This document shows, piece by piece, positions 18,409 to 19,195 of a stretch of DNA of 64,000 nucleotides. The DNA lies in contig JAKQDD010000176.1 of the NCBI GenBank assembly GCA_029556615.1, positions 124,001 through 188,000 of the forward strand. Reading direction: 5' to 3'. The notes under the pieces were generated by a model, which had not been told where the DNA came from, did not search any database, and saw only the letters and a program-made list of their open reading frames with translations. This DNA is from Verrucomicrobiota bacterium (GTDB taxonomy: Bacteria > Verrucomicrobiota > Verrucomicrobiia > Limisphaerales > J093). The position numbers were made by a program, and so were the translations under genes. How positions within the stretch are numbered: position 1 is the first letter of the stretch; each line of letters opens with the position of its first letter.

Positions 18409-18412
18409 TCCG

Positions 18413-18590
18413 AGAGTCCTCGACTTGTGGAACGCGCAGGCAACAAACCAAGTGGGTCCCTCCGGTTCCGGGCCTTTCCTTCTTCCGTCGAGGACTCTTC
18501 ATTAGCGAGGCGTGGAAGAAAGGTCCCGAAGAGGCAGGGAGGCTTCACCGGATCGCGGACTTCGGTAGGTCTGAGGCGGCGCCTCGCTAA
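18413..18590 (+). repeat. Bipartite repeat element copy C (inner arm type ii)
   Basis: agagtcctcgacttgtggaa...cgtcgaggactcttcattagcgaggcgtgg...ggcgcctcgcta. Confidence 0.94.
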
Positions 18591-18642
18591 AAAACGGTTG
18601 CAATCGGGGAGCGACACGGGCATTTTCCTCAACGCTTTGGTT

Positions 18643-18720
18643 CGGGGCGTAGCGTAGCCTGGCTAGCGCGCTTGTTTCGGGTACAAGAGGTCGTGAGTTC
18701 GAATCTCACCGCCCCGACCA
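18643..18720 (+). tRNA. tRNA-Pro (CGG anticodon)
   Basis: Cloverleaf readable: CGGGGCG acceptor / CGCCCCG, anticodon arm CTTGT-TTCGGGT-ACAAG, TPsiC arm GTGAG-TTCGAAT-CTCAC, encoded CCA. Confidence 0.93.
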
Positions 18721-18782
18721 GCCTTCGCTCGCCGCTGGCGCGACGAGCTACGGCTCGGCACGCCAGCGGCGAGCGAAGGCTG
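18719..18782. repeat. Perfect palindrome, 22-nt arms, 20-nt loop, overlapping tRNA-Pro CCA
   Basis: cagccttcgctcgccgctggcg (18719..18740) / cgccagcggcgagcgaaggctg (18761..18782). Confidence 0.95.
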
Positions 18783-18826
18783 CCGCGCCGTAGTGGCGAA
18801 GCCACGGAGGCGGGCCCTGCAGAGAC
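18747..18826 (+). repeat. 80-bp direct repeat copy 1 (upstream of GIY-YIG gene)
   Basis: gctacggctcggcacgccagcggcgagcgaaggctgccgcgccgtagtgg...gggccctgcagagac; 79/80 identical to 19116..19195. Confidence 0.95.
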
Positions 18827-18827
18827 C

Positions 18828-19079
18828 ATGAAGACCGGCTTCTTCTACGTCTACATCCTGCGGACCGAGGCCGCACCACCGCATTTCTACACCGGGTTCA
18901 CCGAGAACTTGAAAGTGCGGCTTACGCACCACAACTCCGGCGGCGATCCGCACACGGCCAAGTACCGCCCGTGGCGCATCAAGACGGCCATCGCCTTCAC
19001 GGATCGCGAGCAAGCGCTTGCTTTCGAGCGGTATCTGAAATCACCCTCCGGCCGGGCATTCGCCAGGAAGCGGCTGTGA
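18828..19079 (+). CDS. Single-domain GIY-YIG nuclease
   Basis: MKTGFFYVYILRTEAAPPHFYTGFTENLKVRLTHHNSG; ends ..SPSGRAFARKRL, typical of the UvrC-type short GIY-YIG family. Confidence 0.85.
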   Translation: MKTGFFYVYILRTEAAPPHFYTGFTENLKVRLTHHNSGGDPHTAKYRPWRIKTAIAFTDREQALAFERYLKSPSGRAFARKRL

Positions 19080-19115
19080 TTGACGCGATGGGGCGCTGGA
19101 TGGCGGTCACGAACG

Positions 19116-19195
19116 GCTACGGCTCGGCACGCCAGCGGCGAGCGAAGGCTGCCGCGCCGTAGTGGCCAAGCCACGGAGGCGGGCCCTGCAGAGAC
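19116..19195 (+). repeat. 80-bp direct repeat copy 2 (downstream of GIY-YIG gene)
   Basis: 79/80 match to 18747..18826. Confidence 0.95.

Follow-up and report, generated by a model that had tools for sequence, protein, structure and literature searches.

A single-domain GIY-YIG nuclease gene with hairpins behind tRNA-Pro(CGG): a probable very small mobile element of tRNA and tmRNA 3' ends

The GIY-YIG homing endonucleases include I-TevI and the free-standing Seg and Mob proteins of T4, and GIY-YIG enzymes are thought to act by hydrolysis. Small single-domain GIY-YIG nucleases are also represented by the Ssn proteins of Neisseria, which are specific for single strands and are linked to the palindromic NTS repeats; NTS, reported as dispersed repeats of one genus, are reportedly cut as single strands. 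To our knowledge, neither a location at tRNA 3' ends nor a cassette form belongs to the description of Ssn and NTS.

The locus presented here, a GIY-YIG gene and hairpins directly behind a tRNA gene, resembles the REP/REPIN-RAYT systems in that short imperfect palindromes with covarying bases accompany a dedicated single-domain nuclease, and in that a genome has many copies without the nuclease and one or two with it. However, the nuclease is of the GIY-YIG type and not the HUH/Y1 transposase of the REP system, and the copies, approximately 10-14 at most, lie at tRNA and tmRNA 3' ends, whereas REPs are scattered by the hundreds over intergenic regions. With the GIY-YIG homing endonucleases the cassette shares the nuclease fold, the position of the gene beside its presumed target and a short tract reminiscent of co-conversion, but it has no intron, its 83-aa protein lacks a DNA-binding tail, the hairpins are part of the unit, and it appears to spread non-allelically to many tRNAs. 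Going by the general description of Ssn and NTS, the combination of a small single-domain GIY-YIG nuclease with palindromic repeats is common to both, but NTS are reported to be dispersed and the cassettes sit at tRNA 3' ends; the Ssn family offers the closest lead for biochemistry. The tropism for tRNA and tmRNA 3' ends is that of the islands integrated by tyrosine or serine integrases, from which the cassette differs in its small size of about 0.35-0.45 kb (about 0.36 kb in the window), in the lack of an integrase and, in most loci, of an att duplication. It also differs from IS200/IS605 in lacking the Y1 transposase TnpA. The cassette is GIY-YIG by family and REP/RAYT- and homing-like in its working, while failing a defining feature of each of these systems. 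The family is widespread and apparently undescribed, and the open-access full texts, to which the literature search was directed, gave no account of GIY-YIG cassettes at tRNA ends.

The window is the whole analysed stretch of 64,000 nucleotides from a contig of a Verrucomicrobiota bacterium, and its features are listed in Table 1. The first-pass annotation of this DNA had described a tRNA-Pro(CGG), a perfect palindrome with 22-nt arms that takes in the CA of the tRNA, a pair of 80-bp repeats, a foldable repeat region and a GIY-YIG reading frame, and each of these was recovered. For the palindrome, 100 shuffles gave an expectation of zero chance matches, and the single-strand DNA fold of positions 18716-18827 has a z-score of -8.0, with none of 200 shuffles equally good. 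The stem of H1 is completed by the CCA of the tRNA and carries a 3x3 internal loop (TTC/TAC). H1 and H2 share one plan, with a symmetric 3x3 internal loop in each. Among known structured RNAs, Rfam found only the tRNA above its threshold in this segment.

Table 1. Features of the tRNA-Pro(CGG) locus (positions of the window)
Feature	Position	Strand	Description	Evidence
tRNA-Pro(CGG), target gene	18643..18720	+	CCA encoded at 18718-18720	ARAGORN; Rfam tRNA 61.5 bits
Putative mobile unit	18721..19079	+	First base after CCA to GIY-YIG stop codon	Pairs of homologous elements in unrelated flanks
Hairpin H1	18718..18758	+	CCAGCC-TTC-GCTCG...CGAGC-TAC-GGCTCGG	Sequence; compensatory changes in 96 instances
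Long palindrome	18719..18782	+	Arms 18719-18740 and 18761-18782	Alternative fold including tRNA CA
Hairpin H2	18783..18815	+	GCGCC-GTA-GTGGC GAA GCCAC-GGA-GGCG, 3x3 internal loop	Sequence; fold
80-bp repeat copy 1	18747..18826	+	3' part of H1, right palindrome arm and H2	
Single-domain GIY-YIG nuclease gene, 83 aa	18828..19079	+		PF01541; AlphaFold2; fold; dN/dS
80-bp repeat copy 2	19116..19195	+	3' of the gene, outside the putative unit	

The 80-bp repeat is composite and joins the 3' portion of H1 to the right arm of the long palindrome and to H2. Its two copies align over all 80 positions with 79/80 identical (99%), and the partner arm of the palindrome is found again at 19130-19151, inside copy 2. 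The framing of the gene by these direct repeats, on which the first-pass annotation had placed weight, is real in the window but varies from locus to locus; what defines the element is the hairpin beginning at the tRNA CCA. Dispersal of the repeat in its own genome was not found either, since beyond the two copies there is a single partial match, on contig C179, where it adjoins a further tRNA-type 3' end and GIY-YIG copy. The motif has three exact occurrences and one with one mismatch in this genome. A dispersed REP repeat was considered and rejected, since the motif is confined to tRNA-type ends with a GIY-YIG gene, apart from one isolated match. Upstream of the tRNA, at 18410-18593 of the window, lies a dispersed repeat of approximately 177 bp with the inverted repeat AGAGTCCTCGAC/GTCGAGGACTCT; it has about 20 copies in the genome (82-85% identity), is MITE-like and is unrelated to the cassette.

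The 83-aa protein matches PF01541 with 48 bits (cut-off 22.6) and has the conserved catalytic Y/Y/R/E residues of the GIY-YIG superfamily; Y9, Y21, G23, R31, H35 and E67 are invariant among 52 sequences. Its AlphaFold2 model (pLDDT 94.8) belongs to the Slx1/UPF0213 fold class, and the nearest solved structures are 1zg2 (UPF0213 protein BH0048, E 3e-10) in the profile comparison and Slx1 in the fold comparison. However, the cassette nuclease differs from the UPF0213 and Slx1 proteins in its C-terminal motif (SGRAFAKKRL) and its genomic setting, and NCBIfam holds no family that covers it. The dN/dS ratio is 0.06-0.10 between the nuclease of the window and its relatives, and 0.03-0.26 between pairs of the nucleases. 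Together with the invariant residues, these low values indicate that the nuclease is under purifying selection and is kept for its activity.

A protein search of GTDB genomes with this sequence as query resulted in 80 loci from about a dozen phyla, among them Verrucomicrobiota, Kiritimatiellota, Lentisphaerota, Pseudomonadota, Thermodesulfobacteriota, Acidobacteriota, Nitrospirota, Fibrobacterota and Armatimonadota. The proposed check for GIY-YIG genes adjoining tRNAs was positive: in 57 of the 66 loci with at least 400 nt of upstream sequence, a tRNA or tmRNA gene lies on the same strand within 700 nt upstream of the nuclease gene. As controls, the opposite strand gave such a gene in one locus and the downstream side in 1 of 77. 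Among the remaining loci, the start motif follows a tRNA-like 3' end (TTCRA-N15-CCA) in two and a CCA in another four. Nearly all close relatives of the nuclease are found in a tRNA/hairpin setting, and only a few, for instance L075, occur without a clear one. The tRNAs concerned include those for Pro, Ala, Leu, Ser, Gln, Ile, Arg, His, Phe, Val, Met, Tyr, Glu and Lys, and tmRNA is used as well. The sequence directly after the CCA is almost always NNCTTCGC or NNCTACGC, and it is here that the conserved hairpin starts.

The nearest relatives of the nuclease in the window come from Lentisphaerota and Kiritimatiellota bins and lie mostly at tRNA-Pro too, in a tree with few columns and weak forks. 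Transfer between phyla is likely but short of proved, since the tree is limited in this way and much of the data consists of metagenome bins, which can mix organisms. Cargo of phages or plasmids was rejected as an explanation: the phage records held no match to the element, which is also nearly absent from the plasmid records (two weak matches only).

In light of this distribution, one has to ask whether a free-standing homing endonuclease could account for the family by cutting only element-free alleles of its own tRNA locus and spreading through allelic gene conversion, with only rare and incidental spread to other tRNAs. GIY-YIG is a classic homing fold, the gene adjoins its presumed target, the 6-12 nt of tRNA carried along resemble co-conversion, and the elements at tRNA-Pro cluster together across the PVC phyla. 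However, the tRNA isotype changes at least 26 times on the nuclease tree, and insertion is not confined to the allelic site, as up to 10-14 different tRNAs bear an element in one genome. Allelic homing alone is therefore insufficient, and we regard this explanation as quite improbable.

The hairpins evolve under constraint. Among 164 distinct tRNA-type 3' ends followed by NNCTWCGC, 115 passed the hairpin test, whereas the other tRNA-like ends of these loci passed it in 2 of 93 cases. In H1, the opposite arm is the reverse complement of the NN dinucleotide in 85 of 96 instances (5000 shuffles: mean 21.6, maximum 33), and in the long palindromes NN covaries in 49 of 54 (shuffled mean 17.1, maximum 26), although such shuffles overstate the independence of hairpins that are related by descent. 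The covarying pairs include GC/GC, TC/GA, CC/GG, TG/CA, AC/GT, TT/AA and TA/TA. Next to the covarying dinucleotide stand TGG or TCG, which are capable of pairing with CCA, and the CCA does pair with TGG/TCGG in most H1 hairpins. Where CTC takes the place of CCA, as in L054 of Caulobacter (tRNA-Met), in L037/L290 of Marinimicrobia (tmRNA) and in L299 (tRNA-Ala), the facing bases shift to GA(G), which pairs with CTC in three sites. A genome-wide character of the dinucleotide found little support, since agreement within genomes exceeds that between genomes only slightly (81 agreeing pairs vs 59 expected, with a shuffle maximum of 97).

Homologous pairs of elements in unrelated flanks define the ends of the unit. 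In one Kiritimatiellae genome, L063 behind tRNA-Glu and L058, which is preceded by only 12 nt of a tRNA-Glu end, are 96.9% identical over 447 bp; this stretch of homology starts 12 nt before the end of the tRNA, runs as far as the stop codon of the GIY-YIG gene and does not continue beyond. Other left ends lie 10 nt (L022/L023) or 6 nt (L081/L086) inside the tRNA, and the right ends of L080/L087 and of the window compared with L009 and with L010 fall at the stop codon within 1-2 nt. These pairs mark the unit as a tRNA tip, the hairpins and the reading frame. In the window the tip corresponds to 18709-18720, and copies at other sites carry 6-12 nt of it along. The GIY-YIG nuclease is the sole protein of the unit, which contains neither an integrase nor an HUH/Y1 transposase such as RAYT or TnpA. 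The right end is the stop codon and has no hairpin.

This right end bears on the possibility of single-strand transposition as in IS200/IS605 or REP/RAYT, where the hairpins would be the ends, guide bases would choose the target and the GIY-YIG nuclease would replace the tyrosine transposase. Imperfect palindromes with an internal loop close to the boundary, the covariation of NN, the pairing of the tRNA CCA with TGG of the element and the shift to GA(G) at the CTC sites (L054, L037, L299) would all fit such a mechanism. A unit that simply stops at the stop codon does not, and no covalent strand transfer is expected from hydrolysing GIY-YIG enzymes. We therefore consider this explanation unlikely.

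Remnant attachment sites of ordinary integrase islands, whose targets likewise include tRNA 3' ends, appear extremely improbable as an explanation. Fragments of tRNA 3' ends do precede some elements (L132, L021, L014, L031 and C179), as one would expect of such sites. However, what recurs is a unit without integrase, the adjoining tRNA is usually whole, and the tRNA 3' end is repeated beyond the start of the element in only 3 of 61 loci, the downstream copy of L081 aside. A 24-nt tRNA end is duplicated in two loci only.

Among 289 Verrucomicrobiota genomes, 143 contain the pattern TTCRA-N15-CCA-NN-CTWCGC, with about 342 matches, a small share of them in coding sequence, and at up to 10 tRNAs per genome, vs 19 matches for the reversed pattern as control. 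Six genomes analysed in detail hold approximately 36 element-bearing tRNA sites, about seven of which have an intact adjoining GIY-YIG gene; the rest consist mostly of hairpins alone, although some flanks are cut by contig ends. The isolate Rhizomicrobium electricum has about 10 element-bearing tRNAs. Hairpins without a GIY-YIG gene, named beforehand as an observation that would count against the cassette, do occur, but they lie directly behind tRNA genes, where non-autonomous copies would be predicted. With nearly all close nuclease relatives in the tRNA/hairpin setting, the refuting condition set beforehand thus has a divided outcome. The contigs of L009, L010, L012, L006 and L007 end just 5' of the GIY-YIG gene in tandem hairpin units. 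Since many contigs end in this way, short-read assemblies probably under-count the elements.

Empty tRNA-Pro sites, which the first-pass annotation had proposed to look for, were found in the family of the window, where all 13 other genomes have tRNA-Pro(CGG) and none has the element, the sequence diverging right after the CCA. Since the relatives carry tRNA-Pro elsewhere, this comparison is by tRNA gene and not by full synteny, and the orthologous locus with the FKBP and RNase HII/HIII genes was not usable for the same reason. In another genus, tRNA-Phe has the element in one genome and lacks it in four; here as well, the empty tRNA is the same gene with mostly non-syntenic flanks.

This patchiness is hard to reconcile with a host function, in which the hairpins would be trailers or terminators of the tRNA and the nuclease a host enzyme of RNA or DNA processing. 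The element always lies on the same strand close behind the tRNA, so that co-transcription is likely, the H1 stem would mask the CCA in the precursor, and the nuclease is under purifying selection. However, any GIY-YIG match is present in only 30 of 97 order-level relatives and a strong one in about 14, tRNAs are empty in relatives, any isotype and even tmRNA is used, and the relatives of the nuclease are scattered over phyla. A host function is in our view very improbable.

We consider it probable that the locus represents a very small mobile element with tRNA and tmRNA 3' ends as its target and with nuclease-free derivatives. The initial idea of a repeat-associated nuclease or compact selfish cassette, similar in layout to REP/RAYT or homing modules, is favored by the patchy cross-phylum family, its place at tRNA and tmRNA 3' ends, the hairpin copies that lack the nuclease and the relatives in which the tRNA is empty. 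Sequence comparison establishes where the units sit and end, the covariation, the patchiness and the existence of nuclease-free copies, and from these results we infer mobility and the chemistry of copying. Against this reading, we found no target-site duplication. The copies within one genome are few, and part of them could be duplications, or the result of later islands that split tRNA and element (L132, L021, C179).

As to the mechanism, the nuclease would bind and cut the DNA of the hairpin and tRNA end, probably while this is single-stranded or extruded. After the break, host repair might copy the unit onto another tRNA 3' end via the short shared tRNA end, and pairing of TGG/TCGG of the element with the CCA of the target would account for landing at the CCA. 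Hairpin-only copies may have been moved in trans or may be remnants. Such a mechanism could be either non-allelic homing or single-strand transposition with pairing guides. The further-reaching proposal is a new class of transposable element, in which a lone GIY-YIG nuclease and hairpin ends drive insertion exactly at tRNA and tmRNA 3' ends, the CCA is chosen via pairing with hairpin bases, and hairpin copies are mobilised in trans. We put this forward tentatively, as a serious possibility with somewhat less than an even chance of being right.

Some further loci deserve mention. L118 (G000:C179:1-16821) carries 12 tRNA genes in an array, together with RtcB-like and Ro60/TROVE-like reading frames, and is possibly an island or a foreign contig. 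At its end stand a 3' fragment of tRNA-Cys type, the hairpin element described above and a further GIY-YIG gene. Relatives of this C179 hairpin element and GIY-YIG gene are present on C203. A position of the C179 and C203 copies behind tmRNA was rejected, as their 3' end matches tRNA-Cys of relatives, and no whole tRNA was called there. In L031 (2478-2900), 14 nt separate tRNA-Ile from the start of a different GIY-YIG gene. Downstream of this gene lies the 3' half of a tRNA-Ile with the hairpin TCCCGATGAAGTGAATCGGGA instead of its anticodon arm, and L014 (2733-2890) has a similar hairpin and tRNA half. Both look like a second kind of tRNA-invading GIY-YIG element. Two genomes of the order have divergent GIY-YIG reading frames (31-36% identity) that begin 13-15 nt after tRNA-Asn (L144:1413-1731 and L145:1411-1731). 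L149 (G026:C8; query positions 391-527 of L123:600-2600) is a repeat of approximately 136 bp that occurs more than 30 times in genome G026.

If the reading as a mobile element is true, the cassette would be among the smallest autonomous mobile elements known, with about 0.36 kb and one 83-aa protein, and it would have colonised the ends of universal RNA genes in many phyla with neither a transposase nor an integrase. It would link homing nucleases, palindromes of the REP type and tRNA-end tropism, and would represent a natural source of hairpin- or single-strand-specific nucleases whose target specificity can be read from the covarying dinucleotide. The reading also makes a prediction that is testable in cultured strains, for instance in R. 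electricum. It would also explain a hitherto unnoticed sequence behind many tRNA and tmRNA genes, the maturation of which could be affected by these elements.
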